Part shown: positions 8,753-63,156 of the stretch, in pieces
Layout of the letters: every line of letters begins with the position of its first letter
How positions within the stretch are numbered: position 1 is the first letter of the stretch
Assembly (NCBI GenBank): GCA_026770025.1
Contig: JAMXDE010000032.1
Location: 496,001 to 560,000 of the forward strand
Reading direction: 5' to 3'
Source of the DNA: Craspedostauros australis
Taxonomy: Eukaryota; Bacillariophyta; Bacillariophyceae; Mastogloiales; Achnanthaceae
DNA: 64,000 bases
Position numbers and translations under genes: made by a program
Notes under the pieces: model-generated
The model's database searches: none
What the model saw: only the letters and a program-made list of their open reading frames with translations
What the model was told of the DNA's origin: nothing

Positions 8753-11700
8753 ATGAAGCTCTCACCGATCGTTTCGTCGGTGGGATTGTCGGTGATTCTC
8801 GCGCAATCGTTCGCCAGCGCTTCCTCGGAATCGCAGGTCCACGTGGACAACCTCCTGAAGTGGGTGGACGGTCAGAAGGGCGCCTTCTTCTCCAACAAGC
8901 AGGAGATCCGCCGCGGCGACGATGGTGAACACGAAGGTGTCTTCGCGACGGAACGCATCGAGAAAGGCGAAGTTCTGTTCTCGTTGCCATGGTCCATCAT
9001 CATCACGGCCTTTGGTGAAGGCGGCGAGCCGTCTGCGGATCCGGAGCCCGTGCCACTGAACTGCGACCTGGTGCGCAACCTCATTTCGGAAATCCAAAAG
9101 GGCAAGGAATCCACCTATTACGAATACGTCCAGTACCTCATGGATTTGCCAGAAGGCGATCTTCCGTCCTCATGGTCGGATGGCGGAGTGGAGTTTTTGA
9201 CGGAGGTGGTGGGAGATCTGCCACCAACCGATCTCTTCAGCTGGCTGGAGGATGATTGGTACAACTCCTGCGGCGGTGGTCACTCGCCTTTCGAAGAACG
9301 AATCGCTCTCATGGTCGTGCAGAATGCCGACGACGACCTCATGATTCCACTCTTTGACATGTACAACCATCGCAACGCGCCATGGCATAATGCGGACGGC
9401 GAGTCCGTGCGCGGGGTCAAGTACGATCTCATCGCCACCAAGCCGATCGAGGCCGGCCAACCGATTCACACCAGCTACAACCTCTGCGCTGGATGCGGCG
9501 GGCGTGATACTGTCTACGGAACTCCGGGTGAGTGGATGCAATGATCTCGGATATGCAAAGAGCACTCTGTTGCTCTTTTCATACATGCATACATCCCATA
9601 TCTATCTTTTGCATTTGCCATGAGTCTGACCATGTCTTTTTCGTTTCTACCATCACGCGCACACCGCATTCTCATCCGCCTCAATCTTGACCTCCGCAAA
9701 CATTGCAAACACCACAAACGCCAATGAAAATCATCTACTCGATCGTTCCTTCCCGCAGAACTCTTCCGCGACTATGGTTTCATCGAGGACTTCCCACAAC
9801 GCTGGGCATTCCACGATCGCAAGTTCAGAATCGATATCAGCAAGGAGGAGGAGACGGGCACAGTGAAAGTCTCCTTCTACGATCTCAACAAGAACTATTT
9901 CTTTCCCAAGCTCGACGTCCATCAAGTGAAGTTCCTTCGCAAGCAAGTTCAGCGCCTCGAACGCGTTGGAAATCTGCAATGGAGCGACGAAAGAGAAAAC
10001 GCCATCCCCGAGAAGGAGCTCAAGCTCACCTGGGCGTTGCATGCCGCATTCCTCGACGCGATAAAGACAGCACTCATTTCACACTTCGATGGCGACTACG
10101 AAAAGGCATGCCTCGATGGAAATGTTGTCGATGGTGTCTGCGTCGTCGGTGACACCTACGAGGACCTCGAAGATGACAAGGATACGACGAATTACAGCAC
10201 CAACTCTTGCGACATCCACACCTTCATGCAATTCGAGGGATACGATCTCACCTTCGTCAGACAGACGCATTACCAGCTCATGAATTACCAGGTCCGTCGC
10301 TCGGACCAGAACGTCTGCATGGATTTGGATGACACTATCCAGATCTGCTCCAACTACCGCCCGCACTACCACGAGTACATCGTCGACTACCCTGCCAAGT
10401 ACGTCGATAACGTCAAGCGCGTCATCTTCATCGGTGGCGGAGACTCCATGATCCTGGACGAAGTCCTCAAATACCCAGAGCTTGAGCTGGTCGTCGGTCT
10501 GGAGATCGATCAGCAGGTCACGCGTCATGTCTTCAAGCGCATGCACACGCAGCCACACTTTGACGATGATCGCGTCGAATGGTGGTTCGGCGATGCCACC
10601 AAGAGTTTGCTTTTGTTGCCGGAGGACTATGCCGCCTCCTTCGACATGGTCCTTGTCGATCTTTCCGAAACCGTCACTTCTCTCACCGTGACGGACGAGC
10701 TCGATGTCCTGGAGGCTCTGTCTCTCTACCTCAAGCCAGATGGTGTGATGGTCAAGAACGAATTCTACCACAACAAGATGTCCGAGATCTTCGACTACAC
10801 CGCGGAGATCCACGTCAACGACGTGCCGCTCATCTGTGCGCAGTCCATGATTTTGGGCAGCAACAAGAAGGACTTTTTCCACCTCCCGCCGAAGGACCAC
10901 GGAATCGAGATGAAGCTGCTGGATCCAATCGTCGAGGACCTGGACCGCCTCAAGCTCGTTCACGACTACCGCAGAAACAATGCCACCGAACAAGGCAAGT
11001 GCAAGCTCCGCCCGCAACCAGAACTCGTCGACCAGACCAAGGCCGCAGGACAGCTCATGGTGATCGATGCCGAACAGGTCACCATCGATCTTTCCTCCAC
11101 TGCCACAGTCCAGGATGCTGTCATCAAGGCGGTCGAAGAGGTCGGACTCACGCCCGTCGATGGTGCTGCGAAGGCTACAACAGACAACGCCTTCATCATC
11201 CCGCTCAAGGAGGGATACGTCATGGCACGACTCTGGAAGGAAGACAACTACGTCGCGTTCGATGCTCACCTGTGGGGCGCATTCAACAAGTTCGAGGCAT
11301 TGCGCGCTGCCTTGATCGCCCTGTCCGGCAGTCCCAAGGGATCGCACCCCAATTACCGCATCGTGGTTGGCGGAATGTTCGGATACCCCGAATGGAAGCA
11401 AGACCAGAGCACCATGGGTCCGCAGATGAACGCCATGAGCCGCAACTGCGACATCGCCGCTGAAGAAGCGAAGGAGATCAAGTCCATCGACAAGGATACT
11501 ATCGACAAGGCCCTGAGCCACACGATCGAGAAGATGCTGTGGGCGGAAGATGGCGTGGCTCTTGTCCTGTGCGGATCCAAGGACGAGCCATGCACAAGTC
11601 GCGAAGTGATGATGCAGCGAGAAGAGATCAACGAGGTCGTCACGCTGTACTCTTGCGACGGACTTGACACCACGGGACCGGTGGAAGTGAGATCGGCCAG

Positions 11701-12661
11701 CATGTATGCTTGCGAGAAGAGCATGACGAAGCACCTCCTGGCGGAGGTTGATGAATCTGCCATCACTGCGTTGATCATTGATGATAACGCAACGGGTGAG
11801 ACCGCGAAGATCATCTTCTCTATCATGAGCAGCCCCAAGAACCGAAACGCCCTGCTGAGCCGACACTACATCGGCATTTCCTTCATGGACGACAAAGCGG
11901 AGATATGGCGCAGAGGCCTGCTGGAGAAGATGCGTCGTGACGATCACAACGATCCAAGCAGCCGCGCGCAGGTCAAGCTCTTCGACGGCGACAGCTCCGT
12001 CGAGCTCGGCATCCTCTCCATCGGAGACAAGGAATCCACCTTGCACCTGGGTGATCTGATCGCCACCATGAAGGAGACGGTCGGCCTGGATGCCGAGGCT
12101 GATAAGCTGCAGGGAGGCAAGTGGCAGTGGCAGGACAAGTACAATCCACGTGAGTACCTGCCGGGCGATTACGACCCAAGCGAAGCACTGCAGCAGTACG
12201 AGGAGCAAAAGCCGCTGGGCCGACACTCGGTGTTCCAGCTCGAAGCAAAGAGTGACGATGTGGTCGTGTCGGCAGTCATGCTTGCCGGCGCTTTGAATTC
12301 CGCCGTATCCAAGGCCGGCACCGAGATCCGTGACGCGCTTCCGCAAACCGACGACAACATGGAGGGATGCATCGTGGCATCCCTGTACGAATCCGGCAGC
12401 GTCGTCGTCGTGTGGGACGGCCGCAAGCACGTCGATCTCAGCGTCTTCTCGTACGATCAGGACGAAGAGAAGTCGACCAACTTCGTCAACGCCTTCCTGG
12501 AGGCATCCTCCGGCAACCTGATGCTGACGTTGCGCGACGACCAACCGCGCGGTATCGGTCGGGTCGTCAACTTCCAAGCCGACATCGATCACGTCGACGC
12601 ACCCATCATTCTCGATAACGACAACGATGATGACGATGATGACGATGAGGATGACAACTAA
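8753..12661 (+). CDS. SET domain / spermidine synthase-like / SpeD-like fusion protein
   Basis: Two exons: 8753-9527 and 9759-12661, joined in phase 1 by an intron with GTGAGT and CCCGCAG ends, giving 1225 aa. Residues 1-24 look like a signal peptide (SVGLSVILAQSFASA). Residues about 45-330 form a SET domain of the Rubisco-methyltransferase type: GVFATERIEKGE, DMYNHRN, TSYNLCAGCG, then across the splice GTPGELFRDYGFI. Residues about 455-600 match the spermidine-synthase fold: YRPHYHEYIVDYP, IFIGGGDSMILDEV at 480-493, GLEIDQ, FGDATKS, but VDLSETV replaces the usual DSSDP. Residues about 690-790 (EGYVMARLWKEDNYVAFDAHLWG region) resemble bacterial-type AdoMet decarboxylase SpeD but lack the ESH serine that becomes pyruvate. 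About 400 unassigned residues follow, ending in an acidic Asp tail. Polyamine-related or protein methylation/aminopropylation in the secretory route is inferred. Confidence 0.85.
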
Positions 12662-14688: not shown

Positions 14689-15012
14689 AGGATGGGGTTG
14701 GTAAAGTATAATATGTTATTTACGAGTATGGTATTGTACTACTGCGCCCAGCAATAATTTACAACACAGTAACGCTGTTTGTTGCCGAATGAGAGTTTTT
14801 TGTTGCCACAACCAGTTCTTTTGGGCCTCCGGTAATTCAACTTTTCCATTTGTTTTGAGATATGAACATCCCCGACTCAGCAAATGTCATTTCCACGCTC
14901 GCCCTCACGAAACACAAGTCGGCTGCCATCATCACTTTGCCCAATACAATCGATTGACTCCTTGACTTGACCAACCCTACCATTATGAAATTAATGCTTC
15001 TAAATTGTGTAG
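14689..15012. other. Intergenic, no gene seen
   Basis: AT-richer spacer between the 3' end of the glycosyltransferase gene and the decayed transposase. It probably includes the non-coding flank of the transposon. Confidence 0.5.
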
Positions 15013-16420
15013 TTACAGCTTCATAGTGCATCTGCCTTCGTTTTTGCAGATCTCAGGTACCTGCATAGGAGTGCGTCTGGGTTCAGTTTGCTTCTTTGCT
15101 CGTTTGCGGTTGGGTTTCAAGTTCATCATTTCTCGTTTGGCTTTCTGCGTTGCTTCGTATTGGGTATCATAGAGTTTGGCAAGTCATTTCTTCTTCTCTT
15201 GTTCGCCTTCAAGGTTGTCCACCATGAACTTGATTTCGGATAGATCCATGTTTCCCACCATGTCAGAGTGAAAGTGTTGCACGTTCGGTTTTGGATATTT
15301 GAGCGCGCATTCAGTCTTTTCTTTCGGTGATGTCAATGGTGTTCCCATCTCTTCTTCATCATCTTCATCAAGGACCATGATGGCAGACACAACCTCTACC
15401 CCAGCTGGCTTGCCCTGTTTGTTGGCTATTGGCATGCAACATTTCCGAACATTCATATCTTTGCCCCCATGCTCACGAACAAATTGATCACCTCCCTTGT
15501 ATTTTACAAGTGCGCAAGCCACTTGGGAATGGCGCACGTACGGCTGGGAAACTTTGGTGAGAGGGAATTGTTTCCATCAGAGTAATGCTGCATCTCAGAT
15601 CTCGTCTGGAGCCAGAACTTGACTCCCTTTCGATATACCTTGCTGACCCAAGATGTGCCAAGACATAGCTGGAAAGACGCAGTCGTCCTTCACATTCGTG
15701 ATGGGTGAGTTGGGTGGCTGTCTCCAAAAATGCCATCCTCGGCGCCCGAATTCGGTTCCAAGCAACTCTTGCAATTCTCCATCTTGATGTGGACCTGTTC
15801 CGTCCATTTGATAGTGTACTCCCGCCTTTCTCGCGGTTGAGTCTGCGATTTGCAGAGCTATCCTATCCAATGACGGGATCTCCTTCTCCCCAAAGTACTT
15901 CTTCAGGCTGTACTTCGCCTTCCCCACCATCTCCTTGTTTCCAGTGATCTCAAGATTGTGGAAGTACATCTCACCTTTCGCATGGAGAATGTTCTCAGGG
16001 ATTGGTGGGTAGTGATATGTACCATCATATTGATAGACATGGCGGTAATATCCCTTTTGCGCTGGCATGAAACAACCAACACGCTCAAAGCTGACCAGAT
16101 ATGCATCACCTCCTTCCACAATACAAATATTCTTGGGCACAAATGCTGTGGATGCAAATACCATCAGCTTGTCCAACTGGCATTTGTGGTGCACCCCATG
16201 TTGCACAGGTTCAATTCCCAAGGCAGGAATCAGTTGGAGGTTCTGCTGAACCACGATAGACCAAACCCACTTCTTGTCCATGTGGACCAAAATGACCTGG
16301 ACCTTGTGGAATTTCTTTGTAGACTCCCAGAACACCCAGAGCTCTATAGCCCAGTTGTGGTTGGCTGTGGAGGAATGTTGGCAAGTTCCGTGATTGGAAC
16401 CCTACAATCGTGGAAGACTG
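15013..16420 (-). pseudogene. Decayed Tc1/mariner-like transposase (relative of the 1.8-4.3 kb copy)
   Basis: Reading leftward from about 16420, one frame is clearly homologous to the C-terminal half of the transposase at 1761-4307: NWAIELWVFWES, VHMDKKWVWSIV, HYQMDGTGPHQD, QPPNSPITNVKDD, then VRHSQVACALVKYKGGDQFV. The first catalytic block reads DKKW, so the Asp is kept but its neighbour Glu is Lys. Three in-frame stops interrupt it: TGA at 15595-15597, a second TGA ten bases further on where the other copy has Cys, and TGA at 15184-15186. The C-terminal lysine-rich tail continues to a TAA at 15013. The N-terminal half, including the helix-turn-helix, is missing beyond 16420. Protein similarity between the copies is only moderate, so they are separate lineages, not a recent duplicate. 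Confidence 0.85.
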
Positions 16421-18069: not shown

Positions 18070-18479
18070 ACTTCCGGCCAAGTGGATGAACCAGTCCAGA
18101 AAAACTCCTTGCAGATGTTTCGCCAATGTCACGAACGCATGTTCTTCACCCACCACGAGTGTCTCAGCGTTTCTGTGGTGTAAATTATTGCTGAGTGCAG
18201 TCGTGGTTTGGCACATGTGTGGGGACCTTCTCCACGTCAACAGGACGACCTCGTGAATCCTCTGTTTCTTCATCTGGCGCAGACTCTCACCACTTGCACA
18301 ATGACTCGCTGGCCCATCCACCGACCGTTCCCCACACCGTCGGTACCCTGGAATCAAGGTTGACAACAGCACTCGCACAATTCAGAAGCGGAACATACAG
18401 TGGAGTCATCGCAACATCAAGCAGCCATACCGTGCACGTCGAAGAAGGACAGCTCAGGAAGGACGTCCGACGGTTGGAG

Positions 18480-36143: not shown

Positions 36144-36347
36144 ATGCGAAGGAATCGAGTCATCCACATGGGAAAACGAGCCAGCCGCGTGGGAAAACGA
36201 GCCAGCCGCATGGGAAAACGGGCTTGCTCCATGGGAAAACGAATCGATTCCATGGGAAATCGAGGCTGTCGCATGGGAAATCGAGGCTGTCGCGTGGGAA
36301 TTTTGATGCATTGTTTCCCACAGAGTCCAAGACAATCGATCGTATAA
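36144..36347 (+). CDS. Small ORF encoding a basic heptad repeat (MGKRASR)n, uncertain
   Basis: A 67-aa frame from an ATG at 36144 covers the left half of the repeat array. It reads as seven consecutive 7-residue units of the type MGKRASR, drifting to MGNRGCR. The 21-bp DNA period leaves other frames open as well, including two on the minus strand, so the coding claim is weak. No signal peptide. It may be pure repeat DNA. Confidence 0.2.
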   Translation: MRRNRVIHMGKRASRVGKRASRMGKRACSMGKRIDSMGNRGCRMGNRGCRVGILMHCFPQSPRQSIV

Positions 36348-36494
36348 ACTGTACTGCCAGCTACGTACGTCTCAAACACATGGGAAAACGGAACGCTGCG
36401 CTCCCATGGGAACACAGAAATATCCCATGCATGAAGACAAATTTCCCATGGAACGTTATTTTTTCCCATGGAACGTTATTTTTTCCCATGCGAC
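36167..36494. repeat. CATGGGAA repeat array in two opposed halves
   Basis: Left half: seven units of exactly 21 bp with RTGGGAAAWC starting at 36168, 36189, 36210, 36231, 36252, 36273 and 36294. Right half (36380-36494): CATGGGAAAAC at about 36380, CCCATGGG at about 36403, then the opposite orientation TTTCCCATG several times, including a 20-bp tandem (ttcccatggaacgttatttt) at about 36442-36490. Roughly a dozen copies of an 8-bp core lie in about 330 bp, with orientation switching across a centre at about 36310-36370. Confidence 0.85.
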
Positions 36495-49774: not shown

Positions 49775-50467
49775 GTCGTGCACGAGTGAGTTTCCGCAGA
49801 GTCGAGCTTCTGCCCGCTTGGCGAATACTATTTCATTGACGATTGGTATTGAACATCAATCCCGAACATGACCATTATCCACGTAATCGATGTCATGAAT
49901 GAGACATAGAGAGCATCGTACATTCTACTACTCTCAAAGTTCACTGTCTCCTTCCCTTGTGAATGTAGGATGGCAACGGAACTGATGGTCGTCGATGGTG
50001 AGGAACATCACGCCGCTCGCGTTGACTCCGTCGCTTTGCACGATACCACGCTGTGGGATCCTCGATCGTCTCCACGTTCCAAGGACGTTGGTACAATGAT
50101 GACTTTCGACGCCTGCACCCACGATCAACTTTCTCCTTGTGTGGCTGGCCACGGCCACGACCAAGCTGCTGTCCACACTGATGCCAAAGTTGATGGGACA
50201 ATCACAGAGCGGCATCGCGGCAGCGATGTGAAATGACAAACATCGTGAAACAACAATCAACGCAATGCCATCCACGCTGCGTGAAACGGAGCATGGGATA
50301 CCACTACCAACGACCATGAAACAGAAGATGATCGCTTCATAAAAAGCAGATAGAGATGAGATCAAGGGACGACGATCAACCAAGCAATCATTCAATCACA
50401 TAAAAAGCCCACCGCATTGACCTGATCTGAGCAATAAATCATCCCATCTCGAAACAACAGCACCATC
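49775..50467. other. Intergenic, no gene seen
   Basis: Includes the 3' flank of the protease gene and the 5' leader of the ankyrin gene. An 88-codon plus-strand frame at 49970-50236 has no recognisable motif. Confidence 0.55.
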
Positions 50468-52441
50468 ATGGTCGTCATCCTTCCACGACTCGTTGTGATG
50501 TTCGCCTCACCATTGCGTAACCTCCGGGCTTTGTCAACACAAACCACAAAATGGTCGTCTCCCCTCCCGCTCAAGTCTACCCCTGATGATGCATCCAGCC
50601 CGACCATCACCAACCAGGATCTCCTACACGCCGCAGAACGAGGAGACATGGATACCCTCACCGCATGGAAGACAGCATTTCCACAAACCTCCATCGACAC
50701 GATCAAGGATCATCGCGACAAAACTCCACTCCACCTCGCATGCTCCAACGGCCAGCTTGAAACGATCAAGCAGTTGATGGAGTCATGCGGAGCAAACATC
50801 AATACCCAATCCATGGATGGAGAGACTGCGCTACACTATGCATGCGCACAGGGCAACCTCGATGTCGTGGAATACCTGGCCGGGTCGCATGCTGCAGATG
50901 TCAACCTCCAGGATAACTTCGGCAAGGTGGCACTCCACGACGCCTGCACCGAGGGGCATGTGGCCATCGTGAAGGCTCTGATCGAGTCATATTCTGCAAG
51001 CGCTCTCGTCCAAGATGACAAGGGTGAGAATGCCCTCCATGCCGCGTGTCTTCCTGGACACTTGGATGTTGTGGAGTACCTCGTTGGATCATGTGGAGTG
51101 GAAATCAATGTGCAAGATGAATTCGGTAACACTGCGATCCACGATGCGTGTCTGAAGGGTCATCTTGATATCTTGAAGTGTGTGATGGAGGCTCGTGCTG
51201 TGACCATCGACGTCCAGAACAATGACGGCGATACCGCACTTCATGTTGCTTACAGAAATGATCATTTGGATGTTGCAGAGTACCTGGTGAAGTCGTGCAA
51301 GGCAGATGTTCATGTTGAGAATGACGCTGGCGGCACGTCTCTTCAGTCTGTATATTCCAAAGATCATCTGGATGTTGTGAGATGGTTGGCGGAGTCAGGT
51401 CAGGTGGATATCAATGCCAAAGACGAGAATGGCGACACTTTGCTTCACAGCGCAAGTGCTGGGGGCCGTCTGGGTATGGTGGAGTACTTGATACAGTCAG
51501 ACGACCTGAAGGTGGATGGCAACGCCAAGAACAAGGCTGGCAACACTGCCCTTCACTGCGCAAGTGTTGGAGGCCACCTGGATGTGGTGAAGCATTTGGT
51601 GGACTCAGGCAAAGCGATCATCGACGCCAGCACCGGGGATAGTTGTGGCAACACTGCACTCCAGCTTGCAGCCGCGCATGGACATCTGGATGTTGTGAAG
51701 CATTTTCTGGAATCAGGCGAAGCCAACATCAACGCTGAGGATCGTGGGTGCGAGAGACTACTCTACATCGCATATCTCAACAGCCGCTTCGATGTCGTCG
51801 AGCATCTCATCGGAACACCAAGCATATATCCAAACTTCCGACACAAGTGTGGCAACACCGTTCTCCATCTCGCAAGTGGCGATGGCCATCTCGGTGTTGT
51901 GAAGCGGCTGGTTGAATCCGGCAAGGCCAATATCAACGCTGAGAACTGCAGCCGTGAGACTCCAATCTTCAAGGCATATCACAACAATCACTTCGATATT
52001 GTCAAGTATCTGGTCGCAGCACCAAATGTCGATTTGAACGTGAAAAACTGGAATGGCAAAACCATCCTCCATCACGCAAGTCGGAGTGGGCATCTCGACG
52101 TCGTGAAGTCGTTGGTTGAGCAAGACATGGTAGTTGTCAACGTCAACTCCAACAACGATGGCAACACTGCAATGCACGAAGCGTGCTACAATCGTCATCT
52201 CGACGTTGTGAAGTATTTGGTGGAAGCCTGTAACGCAGAAATCAACATTCAAAACGAGTATGGCAGCACACCATTTTGGTGGGCAAGCTGCTATGGCCAT
52301 TTGGAGGTGGTCAAGTATTTGGTGGAATCGTGCAACGCAGACATCAGCATCAACGATAACGATGGCAAGACTGCCCTGGATATTGCGATTCAAAAGGGCC
52401 GCAGTGATGTTGCCGACTACTTGGCCGCTCTTCCTCGATGA
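50468..52441 (+). CDS. Ankyrin-repeat protein, about 18 repeats
   Basis: A 657-aa single-exon frame from the ATG at 50468. The first 30 residues (MVVILPRLVVMFASPLRNLR, then ALSTQTT) have Arg without acids and could be a mitochondrial presequence. From about residue 48 to the end the protein is built of about 18 ankyrin repeats on a 33-36 residue period, each with the T-x-LH-x-A...G...VV-x-L pattern (TPLHLACSNG, TALHYACAQG, TALHCASVGG, TAMHEACYNR). Repeats 8, 12 and 14 are degenerate at the TxLH position. No kinase, SOCS or DHHC domain is attached, so it is a pure binding scaffold. The very uniform 'HLDVVKYLV' phrase suggests internal duplication. Confidence 0.9.
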   Translation: MVVILPRLVVMFASPLRNLRALSTQTTKWSSPLPLKSTPDDASSPTITNQDLLHAAERGDMDTLTAWKTAFPQTSIDTIKDHRDKTPLHLACSNGQLETIKQLMESCGANINTQSMDGETALHYACAQGNLDVVEYLAGSHAADVNLQDNFGKVALHDACTEGHVAIVKALIESYSASALVQDDKGENALHAACLPGHLDVVEYLVGSCGVEINVQDEFGNTAIHDACLKGHLDILKCVMEARAVTIDVQNNDGDTALHVAYRNDHLDVAEYLVKSCKADVHVENDAGGTSLQSVYSKDHLDVVRWLAESGQVDINAKDENGDTLLHSASAGGRLGMVEYLIQSDDLKVDGNAKNKAGNTALHCASVGGHLDVVKHLVDSGKAIIDASTGDSCGNTALQLAAAHGHLDVVKHFLESGEANINAEDRGCERLLYIAYLNSRFDVVEHLIGTPSIYPNFRHKCGNTVLHLASGDGHLGVVKRLVESGKANINAENCSRETPIFKAYHNNHFDIVKYLVAAPNVDLNVKNWNGKTILHHASRSGHLDVVKSLVEQDMVVVNVNSNNDGNTAMHEACYNRHLDVVKYLVEACNAEINIQNEYGSTPFWWASCYGHLEVVKYLVESCNADISINDNDGKTALDIAIQKGRSDVADYLAALPR

Positions 52442-52867: not shown

Positions 52868-53098
52868 TCACTTCTGCATGCCCATCTCTTCGTCACTCTC
52901 GGCGGCGCTGTCATTCTCCTCCTGGTTCAGCTTGTTCATGGCAGCAGTCTCCATGCGAAGGGCAGACTCAAAGACGGCGGCGGCGTCGTCGTTGCTGCAC
53001 GAATTGATCTCCTCACGGAGTCCCTTGATGTTCGACAGGATGCGCTCGCGGCGGACGGAGTACGACTCATTCCGTGCGGCGAGATCCTTCTGGAGCTC
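52868..53098 (-). pseudogene. Displaced C-terminal coding segment of the SIT-like gene
   Basis: Minus-strand frame of 76 codons plus TGA (stop at 52870-52868): ELQKDLAARNESYSVRRERI, SNIKGLREEINSCSNDDAAA, and an end in AAESDEEMGMQK. It begins inside the 14-bp duplicated sequence that also occurs at 61653-61666, where the other part of the gene reads KKYLELQK in the same phase. It is therefore the last part of the SIT coding sequence, cut off by the LINE. The content is helical and charged, like the cytoplasmic coiled-coil tail of diatom SITs. Confidence 0.85.
53085..53098. repeat. Left target-site duplication of the LINE
   Basis: TCCTTCTGGAGCTC, identical over 14 bp to 61653-61666 on the other side of the LINE. 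Sequence beyond the repeat differs on both sides as expected. Confidence 0.9.
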
Positions 53099-53199
53099 AC
53101 AGTCTCGTGACCCTTCCCCTGTTGAAGACGTACGTAGAACTGGTACAAAAAATCTTACGTAGAATACGTTGAATCAGTACTGGGAGCGAAAACCCGACA

Positions 53200-55473
53200 A
53201 TGGCGAAACAAAAACGTGATGACCGTAGCCACAAAGCCGACAGCATGGCCTCGATACCACCTCCACCACCAGGCAAGCCTCCAGCAAAGGCCCCTCTCCC
53301 ACCTGTCCAAATCCCAGCTCCGAACGACCCGCGGGTCGCCGAGGAAGTAGAAATGACCGACGTGGCCACACCCACAGCAAAAAACACCAGCACCACGAAC
53401 AAGGAAGGCTGGCTGTGGAGCCACGCGTTGGAACAACAATGGCGAAAAATGCTCAAAGAGCGTAACTTCGCGACGCGGTTGGTTCAACCATTCACAACAC
53501 TCTTCGGGGAAGGCGACACCATCCACGATGCGACAAGATACGTTAAAGGACTGGCAGGGAACCCTCCGTTCGTCACCTCAGCCCAATGGTGCAGCATCTT
53601 CGAGAAAGCAACCAAAAACAAAATGGAGCCAGCTGACAACACGCGAACCGTCAACCTCTACCTGCGTCTCATCAAGACAGACAACCTGTTCACATCCATG
53701 TGGAAGAGTGGCCAAGTCCGCGAGACACATGAATCAGCGGGATGGATCGCTGCTCGTTTGGTGTTCATGAAGGACAAGCACATCGACATTGACAACTTGG
53801 ATGGAGAAAAAGCAATCTCACCCAACCCAGCACAGAAGAAGAAGCAAAAGACAAAGGAGATTCTCTATCTCAGGAGAGAGGCAAGCGACAAAACCAGGAA
53901 CTCTGTCAACAATGCGTTGTCCGACTTCCATAGAACCTTCGTCGATCTCCGGCTTCCAGCTCCACGCGACGGATCCAAGACAGCACCAGCGCAGGCCATC
54001 GAAAGCCTCAACATTGTGGTCGACTTTGTCTTTCAAAACGACGCAAACGCCAAATTCCTGTCCTGGCACCACGGAGCTACCAGACCCTGGACAAAGAGAG
54101 ATGGGAAATGGGAGTCGCGAGAGACCGTCAAGCTGTTCGTCGAGAATCTGTACGCAAGAACTGGCAACACCATCTTCACGCGTGTGCTCCTTGCACACAA
54201 AAAGGACCTCAGCTCGTTTCAAGACGATGGCACCCTAATCGACGAGGGCATCCACATGAAGAAATCAGCCATCCAAGAGAAGACAATTGTCTCCGCAGGC
54301 TGGCTCTTCGGAAGCCACAGTACCACCAACAACAAGGATTTGGCAGAAGTCCTCGGAGGCCACAGCAAGGTCAAAGGAGTGATGGAGATTGAGATTCGTC
54401 TCAAAGAGATCCGCCTCAAGTCCGGGCGACAGGTGAAACGCAAGGAGTTCAAGGACAGACAGCGGGCGGCCCACATCATGTGTGGCCATTCAAAAGCCAA
54501 GGACTGTCGGGCCGCGATGAAGCGGATCTTCAACGAGAAAGGTGCTAGCCTGGTCCTGGGCAAACAACTTCGGTTTATGCCGGACGCCCTCGATCCAAGA
54601 TTCGTGCCCTCTCCCAGGAAACTGCTGGGTCTGGAGTACATGGCGAAGGCGCAACACCGATTCGAATCCAAGATGTTGACCCAAGGAGTGGAATCCATTC
54701 AAGAGCTCGACGTACCCATGTCAGTCTACCTGGTGTCCCTCCGCGAGGTGATAATGAACTTCCGATCGTTCGCAAACCCCGAATACGCCCTCTTCGTGTC
54801 AGTTGACACTGACAGAGCGGATCCCTTCCGAACCAATTTCGTGTACCACGAGGACCGACAGGTCGAGGCGCAGGAGGTGATCTCCAAGCTCCCGTTTCTG
54901 TGCCTTAAGCTTCTGGGGGGTAACTGCCATCATTGGTTTACCCCGTCAGGCTGGGCAGACACCGACAACTTCACGGAAGATTGGATCACAGGCTTTGTTA
55001 CAGGCGTTGACGAGGACGAGATTGAGGAGTACACGGAAATCGCGCAGAGCGTTCTCCATTCAGACGTTGAGGCGATGGACTCCGTCTTGGCAGAAGACAT
55101 GGGCTGGAAAGGAGCAGTGGACGACGAAGGAAGAGCGAAAAGGATCCCTCTCTTGAAAATCGAGATCGACTTAGACAGCATCCCAAAGAACCAGACCGGC
55201 GACAACCATACCGTTGGTTCGAACACCCTTGCCACATTCGCGGATATCTCCCTGCACCAACAGGTCGAGTTCGCGGGGCACGCCATGTCCAAGACAGCAC
55301 GCACCAAGGCTGCCCGTCCAACCCAATTCGCCACAGATACTTCCGCGCTCCACGACGTCGAGATGCCGGCCACAACCAAAGACGGCGCAATCGTCTTCCC
55401 ATCAGCGGCTCTTTCCCCGCTCCTCGAAGGATCGCATACAGGTAGCAAAGACGCCTCGGACGCCTCCAAGTAA
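53200..55473 (+). CDS. LINE ORF1 protein
   Basis: 757 aa from the ATG at 53200 (MAKQKRDD). The N-terminus is Pro-rich (PPPPPGKPPAKAPLPPVQ). The body is a globular basic protein without a zinc knuckle or RRM that I can recognise; blocks such as GWIAARLVFMKDKHIDIDN, VSAGWLFGSHSTTNNKDLAE and LRFMPDALDPRFVPSPRKLL are characteristic but unnamed. By position it is the nucleic-acid-binding, particle-forming partner of ORF2, as in other two-ORF LINEs. It ends ...KDASDASK and lies in the same reading frame as ORF2, separated by 633 bp with stops. Confidence 0.85.
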   Translation: MAKQKRDDRSHKADSMASIPPPPPGKPPAKAPLPPVQIPAPNDPRVAEEVEMTDVATPTAKNTSTTNKEGWLWSHALEQQWRKMLKERNFATRLVQPFTTLFGEGDTIHDATRYVKGLAGNPPFVTSAQWCSIFEKATKNKMEPADNTRTVNLYLRLIKTDNLFTSMWKSGQVRETHESAGWIAARLVFMKDKHIDIDNLDGEKAISPNPAQKKKQKTKEILYLRREASDKTRNSVNNALSDFHRTFVDLRLPAPRDGSKTAPAQAIESLNIVVDFVFQNDANAKFLSWHHGATRPWTKRDGKWESRETVKLFVENLYARTGNTIFTRVLLAHKKDLSSFQDDGTLIDEGIHMKKSAIQEKTIVSAGWLFGSHSTTNNKDLAEVLGGHSKVKGVMEIEIRLKEIRLKSGRQVKRKEFKDRQRAAHIMCGHSKAKDCRAAMKRIFNEKGASLVLGKQLRFMPDALDPRFVPSPRKLLGLEYMAKAQHRFESKMLTQGVESIQELDVPMSVYLVSLREVIMNFRSFANPEYALFVSVDTDRADPFRTNFVYHEDRQVEAQEVISKLPFLCLKLLGGNCHHWFTPSGWADTDNFTEDWITGFVTGVDEDEIEEYTEIAQSVLHSDVEAMDSVLAEDMGWKGAVDDEGRAKRIPLLKIEIDLDSIPKNQTGDNHTVGSNTLATFADISLHQQVEFAGHAMSKTARTKAARPTQFATDTSALHDVEMPATTKDGAIVFPSAALSPLLEGSHTGSKDASDASK

Positions 55474-56106
55474 GAGGTACAGCGGGAAGCATTGGAGAGA
55501 CCTCAGAAACCTCTGCATCCACGACCGGCCCATACCGATCAACACATACATAAGAAAAAAAAAAAAAAAAAAAAATCAGCAACAAAAACACACGACCAGA
55601 GACATCAAAGCACCCACAGCAACAACACGAACGACAGACTACAGCCGACGACTAGGCATCCAGCAGCGACGACCATCACAAGACACCCGATACACAACAA
55701 CAAGCACGGGACAACCGACCATACACCAGCCAATCTGAGCAGCGCTAACACCACTCACACGACGCCAACTCCGCCACACCAACATCAACACCTCACCACC
55801 AACACACCGTACCAATTATACCACATCAACACCTCACCACCAACACACCGTACCAATTACACCACACCAACACCACACTAACACCACACTAACACCACAC
55901 CGACACCACACCGACACCACACCAACACCACACCAACACCACACCAACACCACACCAACACCACACCGACACCTCACCGACGCCACACCGACGCCACACC
56001 ACGGCACACCGACACTTCACCAAGAGCCACTACCAACACCGGCACTTCAACCTCGCAGGACGTCACCGGCTCATCAACAGTGGGCAAGTACGCCCAATCC
56101 ATCAAG
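55474..56106 (+). repeat. LINE inter-ORF linker: A21 run and ACACC-type minisatellite
   Basis: After ORF1 comes a run of 21 A (55555-55575). A 41-bp tandem duplication follows (CATCAACACCTCACC at 55783 and 55824), then many CACACCAACAC units of 11 bp to about 55990. No G-rich or structured segment other than this. From 55882 the ORF2 frame is open through the repeats without an ATG. Confidence 0.85.
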
Positions 56107-59100
56107 ATGCAGCAACAACAGAAGCTCAAACGCAAGGGCACCATACGCGTGGTCTTCCAAAACGTGGCTCAGATTCCCCTCAAGAAATACCAAGAGAAGA
56201 ACAGGGCCATCTTTGAGTTCATCCACCAAGAGGAGGTCGACGTTGTCGCAATGGCGGAGACGAACATCCGCTGGGACAATGTCTACGCCACCGAGCAATG
56301 GAAGGACAGACTTCCAAGCCCCTTGCGAAAGGAGAAGTCCATCTTCGCCCACAACATTCACGAGCAACACCTGGAGCCAAGACAATACGGAGGTGCGGCG
56401 GTCTCAGCTTTCAACGAGCTCTCGCATCGCGTTTGCGGCAGGGAAGCCGACCCCTCGGGCATGGGTAGATGGTCGTCGCTCGTCTTCGAAGGCAAGCAAG
56501 GGAAGCGGCTCCGAGTCGTGTCCGCCTACCGGCCATGCAAGTCGGAAACAGGGAGCTCGACCGTGTGGACTCAGCAAGTCCGAGCGCTGCAGGCCTCCGG
56601 CCGCGATATTGACCCCATCTGCGCTTGGCAAGCGGATATTGCGACAGATATCCAGCGCTGGAAGGAGTCCGGCGAGACCATTGTGATAGGCGTGGACGTT
56701 AACGACGACACGATCGACGGTCCGACAGCCCAAGCCATGTCCGACATGGGGCTGCCTAATGCCCTGTGGTCCTACATGGGCGAAGGTGCTCGCACGGCCA
56801 CTCAACAGCGAAATCAGAACAACGTCCCGATCGATGCCATCTTCCTCTCAGCGGGAGCGCATATCGTCGACGGGGGCTATTACGGATTCGGAGAAGCTAT
56901 TCCTTCCGATCACAAGGCGCTATGGGTAGACCTGGACTTTCACGAGGTGCTGGGTCGCGGCACGCAGCCGATCCCGACGAGACAACCAAGGCGACTTCAA
57001 GTCCAACATCCCAAAGTGGTGCAACGCTACAACGATTCCCTACTCGCAGAGTATGCCAAACATGGGATCATGCGGCGAGCTCAAGCTCTCATCGACATCG
57101 CAAAAAGCCAGGGATGGGAACTCAACGACACCCAAGAGACCAAGCTGAATCGCCTGATTTTACAGACCAACGAGATCAAGCGCAAAGCAGAGAGAGATTG
57201 TCGCAAACTCCGAATGGGCGCCATCGAATGGTCCCCGGAGGTGAATCACGCCAGGTTGAACATCAGATTCTGGACCATGGAAGTCAAAGCGCTGAACAAA
57301 GTAAAAGTGAGCTCGTCTCTACGGAAGCGGCTCAGACAACAGACCAACTTGACTCCGACGGAATCCCTGGAAGAGGCCGTTGCACACCGGTCAGCGGCGT
57401 ACAAGAAATACTACGCAGTGAAGGCCAGACACAAGGAGCTCCGCCAGGAGTACCTCGTCGAACTGGCGCAGGCCAAACAGCAGCAAGGTCAGCTAGAAGC
57501 CGACAGTGCGTTGCGGCAATTGCAGAACAGGGAGGCACAGCGGTCAGAAGCCCGACGGCTTCGCAGGGTCCTCGGAGCGGAGAACTCCTTGACGACGAAG
57601 GTTCTCTTCACGGACCAGGCGGGGGAAACGCACGAATGCACCGAACCCTCGCAGATTGCGGAGGCGTGTATACGGGAAAACAGAAGACGGTTCTCCCAGG
57701 CAGCGGCAGCGCCCTGCCTCGTGAGACCGGGGCGGAGCTACCTGAACAAGATCTGGTCCACGGAAACGTCCAGCCAAGTTCTGCGAAGCGACTCTCCTCC
57801 CCCCGCGGGCATGGATGAGATGCTCATGGCGCTATTGGGCTCATTGCACCCCATCCCGGCACCGCAGGATTTCCTCTCCGTGAAAGATCATACAGAGGCT
57901 TGGACGAAGCAGACGGAGCGAGTGAGTTCCGAGCCGGCCAACCCCCACTTTGGTCATTACAAGGCTGCTGCCCAGTGTCCCGCCCTCGCCGCGGTCGACA
58001 TGCAGCTGCGAGAAATCCCATACCAGTGTGCGTTGTCACCGACAGCATGGCGGCGTATCACGGACGTGCAGATCTTGAAAAAGGCCCAGGTCTACAACAT
58101 CGAAAAAATGCGAACTATCCAACTCATGGACGCCCAGTTCAACTTGAACAACAAACGTCTGGGCAGGGACATGATGGCCACCGCGGAGTCAAGTGGTTGG
58201 TTGTCGGAATACCAGTTTGGGAGCAGGAAGGGCATGTCAGCGATCGTAGCCGCACTCAACAAGCGGCTCTCGTTGGACATTGCCTACCAGAAGAAGGCCC
58301 CAGTCTTCTTCTGCTCCAACGACGCCAAGTCCTGCTATGACAGGATCGTGCCCAACTTCGCGGCTGCGGCTATGATGGCGGCGGGTGCCAACCCAAGTGC
58401 GGTCCGCAGCATGTTCGACACCCTTCAGCGAGCTGAGCATTACGTCAGCACGGCGTACGGCGTCTCGAGCGAGAGTTACGCAAAGGATCATGAGTGTCTG
58501 ATGCACGGCATTGGGCAAGGCAACGGAGCGGGCCCGGCCATATGGGCGGTTATTAGCTCAGTGATGTTCAGGGCCATGCAGCAACGAGGCCACGAGACAA
58601 CTTTTCGAGCACCTCTGAGCCGTTCTCCAGTGCGAGTGCTGGGGTCGGCATTCGTCGACGACACGGATCTTGTTCATATCTCCAAGGACGGCGATGAAGC
58701 GCAAGCGAGCCTCCAGAGCTTTCGGCGTATGATCAACGACTGGAACGGGTTGCTCACGGCCACGGGAGGCGCAATCGTGCCAAGCAAGTCGGCTTGGTGG
58801 GCTGTCGAGTTCTCTTTCTCAGCAGGCCAATGGTGGGTTGAGGATTCACATGAGCAGCACCAAATCAACATTTCTGATGGGCAGAGTGGCAATGCTACTA
58901 TCCCGCGCAAGTTGCACACAGATCCAGTGGAGACGTTGGGAGTGTCCATATCGCTTGATGGCAATAACAGCGCCCAAGTCTCAGCTCTTCGCAAGAAGTC
59001 TGAAGTGTTTGCGGAAAAGCTGAGAGTGGCACAGGTCACCCCGCGGGAAGCGAGGACGGCCCTGATTTTGCGATTCATGAAGTCTGTGGAATACGTAATG

Positions 59101-61548
59101 GCGGCCACGCAGCTCACACCGGACCAGTGGCGACACATCATGGCGCCGGCCCTTCAAGCGGCACTCCCCAAAATGAAGCTGATGCGAACATTCCCACGCA
59201 CGGTTCTCTTTGCTCCGGTTTCGGCCGGAGGCATTGGCGTCCCGAACCCTTGGCGACGACAAGTGGTGCGGCAGGTCCAAGCGCTGTTTCAGGAAGTGCA
59301 CGCATCTACCCCTACGGGGAGGATGATGGAGCACTCGATCGAGGCGCTGAAGGACGAGGTTGGCGTTGACGGCTCCTTGTTTGACCACCCTCACCATCTT
59401 TTACAGGATGCTCTTACCCCATGCTGGATTTCAAACCTGTGGGGCCACATCCAGGAGATGGGTTTTCACATCCAGGAGCGAACGCTGGCCTTCCACCCCC
59501 AGCGCGAAGGCGACCGAACGATCACCGAGCTAGCACTGGGTCTAGGGTATCACGGGCAGCGGTTCCGGCGCCTCAATGCGTGCCGGCTGCAACTCGGAGC
59601 GGTGTACATCTCAGACATCGCCACAGCATGTGGTTCAACAATCACCTCGGCGGCTTGGTCGGGACACGAAGCGTCCACATCGCGTGAGTCCTGGCCGCGG
59701 CTTCCCGCTCGTCTGCCAGCTAGCTGGTGGGCAGAGTGGGGACAGTTCTGCAGGAGGTTGACCCGGTCAGACGGGTCCCTCTTGGAGTCCCTCGGGCCCT
59801 GGTATCTCGACGAACACCGCTGGCGATGGTGGCATCACCCGCCCACTGACACGATCTTCGACGTCGGTGCAGCGTCCACGGTTTCCTACCGGCGGACGAG
59901 CGGCCAGCGGCGTACACGACGAGTGAGGTACCACCCAGTGTCCACCTCTGTCTCTCCCCCGGAAGGGGCGGTGCGCATCTCGGTCACGCGCAACGATCGA
60001 TACATCACCTGGGAAGGCACCAGTGGCGTGCAGATGTCCTACGCAGACATCCCATACCTTGAGCCGGAGCGCCATCCGTATATCCATAGCGTCGAAGGCG
60101 ACCTTTCGCCACAAGACGCCCATGGAGCAGCGACCGCGGGTGCCCTAGTGGCGGTGAGTGACGGCTCCTTCAAAGACGGGTGTGGCACATCGGCGTCGAT
60201 CATCTACGACACACGGTCAAAAAAGTCGGTTTCAGTCTTAGCGACTGTGCCCGGCAGCCCGCCCATGCAGAGCTCCTACCGAAGTGAGCTCATGGGTATC
60301 CTGGCCTCACTCATCTACGTCTTTCGCCTTGAGTACGACCACGATGTCGTCATTCCATCCATCACCCTTGCCCTCGACGGGCAGCAAGCGCTTAATCGGG
60401 CTCGGGACGGATCTCCCAGGCCCACGCAACGAGACTGGGACCTTCTCTCGGAGATAGAACACGCCAAAAGCCAAATCCAGTGTTCATTGAAGTGGAGATG
60501 GGTGAAAGGTCATCAAGACGACTCCTCGGCCCCCCTCGACATGTGGGCAAGACTCAACGTGCGGGCAGATGCGGAAGCAAAGCGGCATTGGGAGTTGGCC
60601 TCGACGAGTCCTGCCATCACTAAGTGGGTCATGTCGGCGCCAGTGTGGCGAGTCGGCTGGTCCGGCGCGCCCCGCTCACATGTGGACTCAGCGACTATGG
60701 AGTCAGTAGCTCAGCAGCCCGACATCGACGATTACTGGCGGGCCAAACACGGATGGAGCGAGAGTGACCACTCGGCGGTGGACTGGACGGCATACGCAAG
60801 GGCGCGCAGATCAACAGCGGCCCGAGACAGTATCAGATTCATCACCAAGGTGTCAACGGGGTTCATAGCGGTGGGGAGAAAAATGAAGCAGGCAGGGCTT
60901 CAGGCGGATTCCGTCTGCCCTGGATGCCAGCAGGAGGAAACGGTGGCACATCTTCTTACTTGTGGTGAGTATGAGGATACGTGGGATGAGTCGGTGACAG
61001 AGTTGTTGGACTACATGAATACGGTGGGCACAAACCCCCTAGTGGTGGGCGGAATGCGCCAAGGAATGCGGCGGTGGCGGCGGAAGGTCAAACCGGTGGG
61101 CCCTCAGAGGATAGTGGGGTGGTTCCCGCTCCTTCAAGGGTTTTTACACGTGGACTGGCGGCGGCAACAGGCGGCATGGATGAAGGACAACCCGTCCAAG
61201 CACAGAACGGCGGAGGCTTGGGCAGCTGATGTGATACGTCGCATTTGGAAAATTCCTTGGGCTGTGTGGACCGCTAGAAACAACAAGGTCCACGAGGCAC
61301 CGGACTCGGTGGAAGCACGCACGCGTGACTACGCGAGGCGGCTTCGCTCTTTTCATCCCCCTGGCCTCACTCTGCGAGAGACGCAAGTCCTCCAGCGAGG
61401 CGGGGTGGCCGAGACCGGTACTCAACAACAAGTACAGCAATGGATCGAACTGGCGCAACGGGTCCGGAAGGATGCGCGCGACAGGCAACGGCGGCAGTCC
61501 CTGCAACAGGAACGCTCGCTGATGGCCGCGTGGCTTTCCCAACCTTGA
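56107..61548 (+). CDS. LINE ORF2: APE endonuclease, reverse transcriptase, RNase H, zinc finger
   Basis: 1813 aa from the first ATG (56107); the frame is open from 55882. Endonuclease: MAETNIRW (Glu about 51), DVNDDTIDG, PIDAIFLS and SDHKALW (His about 269). A basic helical linker follows. Reverse transcriptase: SNDAKSCYDRIVP, HGIGQGNGAGPAIWAVISS and the catalytic FVDDTDL (about 849-855). RNase H: AVSDGSFKDG (Asp about 1352), SSYRSELMGI, ALDGQQAL and KWRWVKGHQDDS. C-terminal finger CPGCQQEETVAHLLTC (about 1604-1619). All catalytic positions are present, so the element may still be active. It nicks target DNA and copies its own RNA in place (target-primed reverse transcription), which explains the 14-bp duplication. 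Confidence 0.92.
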   Translation: MQQQQKLKRKGTIRVVFQNVAQIPLKKYQEKNRAIFEFIHQEEVDVVAMAETNIRWDNVYATEQWKDRLPSPLRKEKSIFAHNIHEQHLEPRQYGGAAVSAFNELSHRVCGREADPSGMGRWSSLVFEGKQGKRLRVVSAYRPCKSETGSSTVWTQQVRALQASGRDIDPICAWQADIATDIQRWKESGETIVIGVDVNDDTIDGPTAQAMSDMGLPNALWSYMGEGARTATQQRNQNNVPIDAIFLSAGAHIVDGGYYGFGEAIPSDHKALWVDLDFHEVLGRGTQPIPTRQPRRLQVQHPKVVQRYNDSLLAEYAKHGIMRRAQALIDIAKSQGWELNDTQETKLNRLILQTNEIKRKAERDCRKLRMGAIEWSPEVNHARLNIRFWTMEVKALNKVKVSSSLRKRLRQQTNLTPTESLEEAVAHRSAAYKKYYAVKARHKELRQEYLVELAQAKQQQGQLEADSALRQLQNREAQRSEARRLRRVLGAENSLTTKVLFTDQAGETHECTEPSQIAEACIRENRRRFSQAAAAPCLVRPGRSYLNKIWSTETSSQVLRSDSPPPAGMDEMLMALLGSLHPIPAPQDFLSVKDHTEAWTKQTERVSSEPANPHFGHYKAAAQCPALAAVDMQLREIPYQCALSPTAWRRITDVQILKKAQVYNIEKMRTIQLMDAQFNLNNKRLGRDMMATAESSGWLSEYQFGSRKGMSAIVAALNKRLSLDIAYQKKAPVFFCSNDAKSCYDRIVPNFAAAAMMAAGANPSAVRSMFDTLQRAEHYVSTAYGVSSESYAKDHECLMHGIGQGNGAGPAIWAVISSVMFRAMQQRGHETTFRAPLSRSPVRVLGSAFVDDTDLVHISKDGDEAQASLQSFRRMINDWNGLLTATGGAIVPSKSAWWAVEFSFSAGQWWVEDSHEQHQINISDGQSGNATIPRKLHTDPVETLGVSISLDGNNSAQVSALRKKSEVFAEKLRVAQVTPREARTALILRFMKSVEYVMAATQLTPDQWRHIMAPALQAALPKMKLMRTFPRTVLFAPVSAGGIGVPNPWRRQVVRQVQALFQEVHASTPTGRMMEHSIEALKDEVGVDGSLFDHPHHLLQDALTPCWISNLWGHIQEMGFHIQERTLAFHPQREGDRTITELALGLGYHGQRFRRLNACRLQLGAVYISDIATACGSTITSAAWSGHEASTSRESWPRLPARLPASWWAEWGQFCRRLTRSDGSLLESLGPWYLDEHRWRWWHHPPTDTIFDVGAASTVSYRRTSGQRRTRRVRYHPVSTSVSPPEGAVRISVTRNDRYITWEGTSGVQMSYADIPYLEPERHPYIHSVEGDLSPQDAHGAATAGALVAVSDGSFKDGCGTSASIIYDTRSKKSVSVLATVPGSPPMQSSYRSELMGILASLIYVFRLEYDHDVVIPSITLALDGQQALNRARDGSPRPTQRDWDLLSEIEHAKSQIQCSLKWRWVKGHQDDSSAPLDMWARLNVRADAEAKRHWELASTSPAITKWVMSAPVWRVGWSGAPRSHVDSATMESVAQQPDIDDYWRAKHGWSESDHSAVDWTAYARARRSTAARDSIRFITKVSTGFIAVGRKMKQAGLQADSVCPGCQQEETVAHLLTCGEYEDTWDESVTELLDYMNTVGTNPLVVGGMRQGMRRWRRKVKPVGPQRIVGWFPLLQGFLHVDWRRQQAAWMKDNPSKHRTAEAWAADVIRRIWKIPWAVWTARNNKVHEAPDSVEARTRDYARRLRSFHPPGLTLRETQVLQRGGVAETGTQQQVQQWIELAQRVRKDARDRQRRQSLQQERSLMAAWLSQP

Positions 61549-61652
61549 TCGCGATTTTCGACGGCTCGCTCGACGACGGGTCCTAGTGGGGCCCGTCTAG
61601 ACGAGGGTAAAGCCCGTAGAGGCACGTAACGTAATCTCTGAGTTATTATTAT
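61549..61652 (+). other. LINE 3' end with hairpins and (TTA)n tail
   Basis: Short 104-bp tail containing self-complementary CGTCTAGACG and GGGTCC...GGGCCC stretches, then TTATTATTAT at the junction with the duplicated target. Its last TAA on the minus strand now serves as the stop codon of the truncated SIT reading frame. Confidence 0.75.
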
Positions 61653-61666
61653 TCCTTCTGGAGCTC
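61653..61666. repeat. Right target-site duplication of the LINE
   Basis: TCCTTCTGGAGCTC, identical to 53085-53098. On the minus strand it encodes ELQK of the SIT C-terminal region on both sides. Confidence 0.9.
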
Positions 61667-62682
61667 GAGGTATTTCTTTGGAATGGCAGTGGCACCAGCC
61701 TCATCCACAAGCATGTTGGTTCTCACATGCAGGTTTCGGTTGCTCTGGTGGTCTGACTTCATGCCGGCGGCACGCTCCTCTGGAGTACCAAAGTACACCT
61801 CATCGAGCTGGAAGCCCAAGACAGCCTTGTGGACGGAGGCAAGGACCCAGGCTCCAGAGCAGATATCGGCGGCTTCCAAGAACAGACAGAACTGGAAGAA
61901 GATGTAGACAGTTGGATGGTCTCCGCGCTCCTCCTTTGGAAGCTTGGCAACAGCGAAGAAGGCGATCTGCATACCCTTGAGCATACCCACGATGGACATG
62001 AAGAGGAAGAAGAGGATGACGGCGACTCCATTTGGCACTCTGGCCCACATGGTGGTCTTTCCATCGAACAGGGCGACAAGGGTGATGGCCATGGCGTAGC
62101 ACAGGATGGCGAGGGAGATGAGGATACGGCCCCAGTAGAAGAGGTTCTGGGCACCGTCGCGTGGTGGTTCCTTGGACTCGATTTCCTTGCCGGATGCCCA
62201 AACGAAGAACATCTGGACGAGGTAGAACGAATGCAGAAGTCCAGAGAACTCGATGGCGAGGGCGACATAGAGGGTGAAGACGGCAAAGAAGTTGTTGCTG
62301 TAGTCAAGCATCCAGAGAGAGGCGTTGCCTTGGGAGTTGAGCTGTCCGGCCATGGCGGCCATGAGGATCATGGCGGCTCCGGATCTGAGGAAGATCTGGA
62401 TGATGATGTCTGGGAGACCGAAGACCTTGGTGTCCTCGAGCGGCACACTGCACTGGTTGATGGTGAATACCATGAGGAGGACCATGAACTGACGTCCCAT
62501 GAGGCAGCGGTCAAGGTTGTCACCCTTGTGGGCAAGGGAGGTGCACTTGTGGCTGGTTGGGTGGGATTCTACATAGAGGTTGCGGTCGACTGGTGGGAGA
62601 CCGACGAGGGACCCCTGTCCTCCCTCCACCATGTTGAGCCAGACGAGGGCGGCGATCATGATGACGACAGCAACCACTGGGT

Positions 62683-62888
62683 TGAAAGAGCACTATCGAA
62701 AAATCATGAGGGGAGAGCAAAAGCAAAGTACCATGCCGGGATTCGAACCCGGAACCTCAGTTAGAATTACTGGTGCTCTACCGTTGAGCTACAGGCGTTG
62801 CGATTGCTGATCCGAACACAAGTGAAATTTATAGATAGTGGGGGCTACGGGAGTAACGTAATTTGCACTATACGTATTTGTGCTGATA
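62683..62888 (-). mobile_element. 206-bp tRNA-like insertion in the SIT gene (SINE-like or tRNA-bearing intron)
   Basis: The insert is flanked by ACCCA on both sides (62678-62682 and 62889-62893). Removing 62678-62888 gives an uninterrupted KVHP-VVAVV reading frame matching the SIT family. It contains a tRNA-like unit with pol III A and B boxes followed by TTTT. GT-AG splicing is also possible inside it: GTATAG at 62873 and a TAG acceptor ending at 62693, both phase 0, leaving nine extra residues. It may thus be a SINE-type insertion, a newly gained intron, or an old intron hosting a tRNA pseudogene. Confidence 0.55.
62728..62798 (-). tRNA. tRNA-like sequence, probably pseudogene or SINE head
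   Basis: Good D arm (TAGCTCAACGGTAGAGC, matching an A box), T arm (CCGGGTTCGAATCCCGG, a perfect B box) and an anticodon stem CAGT/ACTG. Against a working tRNA: the acceptor arms ACGCCTG and CATGGTA pair at only two positions, the stem has a C-A pair at its base, and the base before the apparent anticodon TTC is A instead of U. T-runs suitable for pol III termination follow. Confidence 0.5.
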
Positions 62889-63156
62889 TGGGTGGACCTT
62901 GGACGAGACCATGGTCTGCTCATTGAAGATGAGTCCGCAGACGATGGCGATAAAGAAGATGAGGAGTCCAGTGGAGTACACCAACTTGACGAGCTGAATG
63001 GGATCCATGGTTACTTGGTTGGGGATGAGTTGGTGATGGTGATTTGGTTTTGGTTTTGGATTGATTTCCGTTGTGTTGAGCTGAGCTACACTGAACTAAG
63101 TTGGCATGTGTTGATCCACAATTTGATTTTATGAGAGGAGAGAAAGAGAAGTTTGA

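Follow-up and report, generated by a model that had tools for sequence, protein, structure and literature searches.

Full silicon transporters (SITs) have ten transmembrane domains (TMDs) and two EGXQ-GRQ motif pairs, and they occur also in some non-diatom eukaryotes, while the "half" transporters named SIT-L have five TMDs and a single EGXQ-GRQ pair (PMC5100055). In the published SIT numbering, glutamines of the GXQ motifs lie at 62, 104 and 278 (PMC4912633). Here we compare with these systems a SIT-like gene on the minus strand of a 64,000-nt window from Craspedostauros australis (assembly GCA_026770025.1, contig JAMXDE010000032.1, forward strand); all coordinates are positions within this window. 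Judging from the DNA, we consider it highly probable that a long interspersed nuclear element (LINE) was inserted antisense into the last coding exon of this SIT-family gene with duplication of a 14-bp target, that the transcript would stop after one extra residue, and that the gene also lacks about 93 positions of its family profile.

The insertion site

The ends of the LINE are marked by the sequence TCCTTCTGGAGCTC, which an exact search of both strands of the whole window finds exactly twice on the plus strand, at 53085-53098 and 61653-61666, and not once on the minus strand, bearing out what the first-pass annotation of this stretch had reported. The pair is not extendable by one base in either direction. 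We read the two copies as a target-site duplication without strand assignment, the first lying at the 5' end of the LINE and the second at its tail. Repeat length alone was rejected as a sign of significance, because 14-mers recur by chance in the window: in 20 order-1 shuffles of it, the non-low-complexity 14-mer pairs numbered 11.9 on average (range 7-22), and the real window has 93 such overlapping pairs, 81 of them spaced less than 12 kb apart. Tandem arrays at 36165-36471 account for 27 of the 40 pairs listed from this total of 93; in the same area, two tandem arrays with units of 21 and 20 bases stand side by side (36156-36300 and 36442-36490). The 14-bp repeat counts as evidence because of its placement, in that a (TTA)n tail ends directly at one copy, the first base of the element lies directly next to the other, and the joined copies restore one reading frame.

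Joining of the flanks gives an exon 2 of 418 residues which is open, with neither frameshift nor stop, to the stop codon at 52868, so the same codon phase and the natural stop previously claimed for the two flanks are found. The joined exon matches the Pfam profile PF03842 (Silic_transp) with 514.5 bits (E = 3.2e-154). The part upstream of the LINE (61667..62692, minus strand), which belongs to PF03842, makes up together with its repeat copy 346 of the 418 residues. The cut-off 3' end with the natural stop (52868..53084, minus strand) is assigned to the same exon by its place at PF03842 positions 461-510 and by its coding score; the repeat and the coding sequence that follows it, stop included, amount to 231 nt, which agrees with the 77 codons given earlier. 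Against PF03842, a piece lying across the junction obtains 102.4 bits and the pre-junction piece alone 79.2 bits. The coding score of the left flank, trained on exon 2 across the LINE, is positive in the predicted frame only (+27.5), the other two frames of this strand scoring -51.4 and -36.3 and those of the opposite strand -2.7, -31.3 and -51.1.

In the proposed course of events, the LINE would have copied itself in antisense orientation into the last SIT coding exon, with 14 bp of the target duplicated. A SIT transcript is predicted to run into the reversed LINE tail and to stop after one residue, which would replace the last 72 residues. As read from the DNA, the filled allele retains the 346 exon-2 residues and one additional glutamate follows, after which the reversed tail contributes three TAA codons (LELQKE, then TAA TAA TAA); the new stop after one added residue had been correctly anticipated. 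Because the reading frame remains open and coding-like to the left and to the right of the LINE, the insertion appears young relative to decay. That the LINE is recent is plausible from the exact 14/14 repeat and the open reading frames (ORFs), a basis which yields no age.

The LINE

The element is a non-LTR (long terminal repeat) retrotransposon of 8,554 bases (53099..61652, plus strand), antisense to the host gene and delimited by the two repeat copies and by its layout. A 5' leader of 101 bases is followed by ORF1 (53200..55473, plus strand), an open frame of 757 amino acids without a recognised domain, by a 633-base spacer (55474..56106, plus strand) containing an A-run and a (ACACCACACCA)n array, and by ORF2 (56107..61548, plus strand), whose 1,813 amino acids comprise endonuclease and reverse transcriptase regions and candidate RNase H and zinc-finger regions. 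The 3' untranslated region of 104 bases (61549..61652, plus strand) includes the (TTA)n tail, which in antisense reads TAA TAA TAA in the host frame. Layout, frames and tail confirm the open ORF1 and ORF2 and the (TTA)n tail that the first-pass annotation had placed between the repeats. The agreement of one repeat pair with one element layout fits the view that all sequence between the repeats is one LINE, and it is plausible that this LINE is whole. Both the simple (TTA)n tail and the 14-bp target-site duplication are characters of a non-LTR retrotransposon; a search for direct repeats of at least 40 bases returned none at the element ends.

The ORF2 domains were recognised by comparison of separate pieces with Pfam and by motif positions. 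The N-terminus of ORF2 matches Exo_endo_phos, of the APE type (E = 1.7e-6, 28.4 bits vs. a cut-off of 24.5), and the reverse transcriptase piece matches RVT_1 (E = 2.2e-7, 31.3 bits vs. a cut-off of 29.6). The pieces matched to Pfam give the order endonuclease, reverse transcriptase, RNase H and zinc finger, the latter two being present in only some LINE clades. ORF2 contains AETN, GVDVND and SDH in the endonuclease, FVDD in the reverse transcriptase and four acidic RNase H motifs, all of which we take to be catalytic. A zinc-finger pattern found CPGCQQEETVAHLLTC only after one spacer had been shortened upon inspection of the sequence, which is no independent test; the original pattern found none.

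Further comparisons were less informative. No Pfam family was found for ORF1 at E up to 0.01, and two rows at E 0.14 and 1.8 came up when E up to 10 was allowed; NCBIfam held no family for ORF1 or the reverse transcriptase and gave one RNase HI row at E 0.59. Searched against the PDB, the joined SIT exon had no row at E up to 1 and the whole of ORF2 none at E up to 0.01, and the reverse transcriptase and endonuclease pieces reached only E 0.21-0.98. A single-sequence fold of ORF1 without alignment was uninformative (mean pLDDT 34.7), and the 3' untranslated region folds no better than its shuffles (z = -0.98). Codon usage of ORF1 and ORF2 correlates at 0.72, which is not decisive next to the values of 0.42-0.72 between these ORFs and other genes of the window. 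By tblastn, the window contains no further copy of ORF1 or ORF2.

Several observations weigh against the interpretation of the locus as a complete LINE within a SIT gene. The matches of separate ORF2 pieces to RNase_H (E = 0.0024) and zf-RVT (E = 0.0021) are both under the Pfam cut-offs. When the whole of ORF2 was scanned against Pfam with E up to 0.01, Exo_endo_phos alone was returned, with 24.3 bits vs. the cut-off of 24.5, and RVT_1 was absent. Because ORF1 is without a recognised relative, its place in the same element depends on position and on one repeat pair. On the side of the host gene, the 72 post-junction residues alone match PF03842 positions 461-510 with E = 0.0039 and 16 bits, under the cut-off of 26.8; the earlier assignment of both flanks to a SIT-like gene holds by the PF03842 match, with the left flank's own match being weak and located where it is expected. 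The left flank is open in three of six frames, namely the predicted one (up to the final stop) and plus-strand frames 0 and 1, and for this reason we rejected its open frame as evidence by itself. Viral contigs contained no relatives of ORF1, ORF2, a 266-aa reverse transcriptase piece, the SIT protein or a 55-aa SIT piece, genome contigs none of the reverse transcriptase piece or of the SIT piece, and phages none of ORF2. These misses say little, because the collections consist of viral or prokaryotic sequence and a query with a single protein detects no more than close relatives.

The host gene

Exon 1 with its ATG (62874..63008, minus strand) encodes a protein beginning with MDPIQLVKL and by itself covers PF03842 positions 3-42 (E = 2.1e-7, 30.1 bits). 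At 61921..61922 (minus strand), where KEERG adjoins DHPTVY, the PF03842 match jumps from position 297 to position 391 without a break of the reading frame, and profile coordinates as well as motif spacing place here the loss of positions 298-390, about 93 in number. The GXQ glutamines of the gene are at 71, 113 and 287, with the same spacing of 42 and 174 as in the published SIT, and there is none near 330, where the fourth would be expected 43 residues further on. The first EGXQ and the first GRQ are intact; KGMQ stands in place of the second EGXQ and WMLD in place of CMLD; FQLDEVYF resembles the YQXDXVYL motif (PMC6114903). Seven distinct hydrophobic segments exceed 1.5 on the Kyte-Doolittle scale, with TMD3 under this threshold. 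By its sequence, the gene is a member of the SIT family, but not a full SIT: it has the profile, and it reaches neither ten TMDs nor two EGXQ-GRQ pairs (four GXQ). Directly beside it, an ankyrin-repeat frame of 667 residues with repeated DNA blocks occupies 50438-52441 on the plus strand.

Did the LINE disable a silicon transporter? The fourth GXQ is published as lying in TMD8, and this together with the gap in the profile suggests that the missing segment corresponds to about TMD8-9. Its absence weighs more than KGMQ and WMLD because variants of EGXQ are known in other lineages. The in-frame loss of about 93 positions is not attributable to the LINE. Because the LINE, moreover, looks young, this loss appears to have preceded it. 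Given a gene that by then would already have lost these positions, the fourth GXQ among them, it is not obvious that the LINE put a normal silicon transporter out of action. Before the insertion the host gene was probably not an ordinary transporter, and most likely it was a divergent, transport-poor or re-purposed SIT paralogue and not a main silicon transporter.

It is possible, and we entertain it tentatively, that the gene was already a pseudogene, with a 211-bp tRNA-like segment as an insertion into the exon, the missing segment as decay and the LINE as one more lesion, a history that is compatible with the LINE insertion. One argument for it lies between the two exons, where a putative GT-AG intron of 181 bases (62693..62873, minus strand) may instead belong to an insertion of 211 bases (62678-62888). 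If exactly these 211 bp are taken out, the result is a gapless 114-residue profile fit that, at 168.9 bits, outscores the three other models, namely the GT-AG splice with 155.1 bits and two alternative donors with 161.2 and 159.4 bits. Exon 1 alone aligns without a gap as far as profile position 42 and exon 2 resumes at position 40, an overlap that the short end duplication of an insertion would produce, and the ends of the segment have ACCCA in common, with 7 of 8 bases identical between TCCACCCA and TCAACCCA. The segment contains a degenerate tRNA-like sequence (62734..62793, minus strand; Rfam RF00005, 35.4 bits, positions 6-65 of 71 of the model), in which the ends of the tRNA model are missing and ARAGORN called no tRNA. 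The changes to KGMQ and WMLD and the missing fourth GXQ would suit a pseudogene as well. However, the 418 joined codons of exon 2 have remained uninterrupted, codon bias is retained and the missing segment is in frame; the GT-AG splice (62873..62693) also preserves the frame, at the expense of 10 extra loop residues relative to PF03842, and KGMQ alone is no proof because EGXQ is also variable in certain other lineages (PMC5100055). The sequence suggests either an intron that took in a tRNA-like piece or an insertion that is partly spliced out.

A protein that still works, or has been re-purposed, could in principle be made from the truncated filled allele if the lost C-terminus were dispensable. 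SIT termini are reported to be more diverse than the membrane regions (PMC4912633), and all seven hydrophobic segments lie upstream of the LINE, the last at 314-332 and the junction at about 391. We nevertheless regard this as unlikely, given that the fourth GXQ and its profile region are absent and that E275A and Q278A disturbed folding in the published SIT (PMC4912633), where E275 would by numbering be the glutamate of the second EGXQ, here a lysine. Very improbable in our view is the further proposal that in-frame loss of about TMD8-9 remodelled the SIT paralogue so that the protein has seven or eight segments and serves a new role, and for which the antisense (TTA)n tail would provide stop and C-terminus in an expressed allele. 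That two unrelated contigs were joined at the repeat during assembly is hardly conceivable: there is only one assembled sequence, but the repeat stands exactly at both element ends, and the outer flanks yield, once joined, a continuous frame that belongs to a single protein family.

Significance and other features of the window

The mechanism by which the LINE would have inserted is the ordinary one of textbooks; what is less usual is that the SIT is reduced, and this lowers the functional weight of the insertion. Among the open-access papers listed in literature searches, no title or abstract beginning reported a LINE in a SIT gene, which is no proof of absence. The locus offers a clean and testable empty-site example of LINE mutagenesis in a gene family that governs silicon uptake, and the SIT paralogue seen here may be heading for loss or re-use. 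The locus might mainly be of use in illustrating how SITs turn over and, possibly, as a polymorphic marker for the activity of LINEs.

Elsewhere in the window, a frame at 9728-12658 (plus strand) matches a spermine/spermidine-synthase domain at residues 213-345 and, further on, an S-adenosylmethionine decarboxylase domain at residues 447-524, possibly a fusion of polyamine enzymes. Two inverted repeats of 40 nt (14738-14777 and 18165-18204), 88% complementary and 3.4 kb apart, could be the ends of an element. The segments 2482-2561 and 15662-15741 are 78% alike, and 2911-3193 and 16076-16358 are 67% alike in the same order, perhaps as parts of paralogous genes.

Comparison with known systems

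Among diatom LINEs, the genome paper of Pleurosigma names the LINE/Ambal class (PMC12803021), a LINE class with a relatively large share of a diatom genome, and the present element would be a further diatom LINE. Among SITs, PtSIT3 of Phaeodactylum is likewise a divergent paralogue, for which its authors suspect pseudogene status or a different function (PMC2758714). The PtSITs have 10 predicted segments and a long N-terminal extension is described, while the excerpts of that report mention neither a LINE nor a lost segment.

With the diatom SITs of PF03842, the gene shares profile positions 3-297 and 391-510, and, all at the published spacing, the first EGXQ, the first GRQ and the GXQ of the second EGXQ. 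It differs from them by the approximately 93 missing positions with the fourth GXQ, by KGMQ and WMLD, and by a C-terminus that the LINE appears to have cut off. Like the SIT-L proteins, it has only one complete EGXQ-GRQ pair, but its hydrophobic segments number seven, not five, and it matches the SIT profile in part at either end. Because both profile ends and seven segments are present, we rejected membership in SIT-L, and the gene reads as a reduced ten-TMD SIT.

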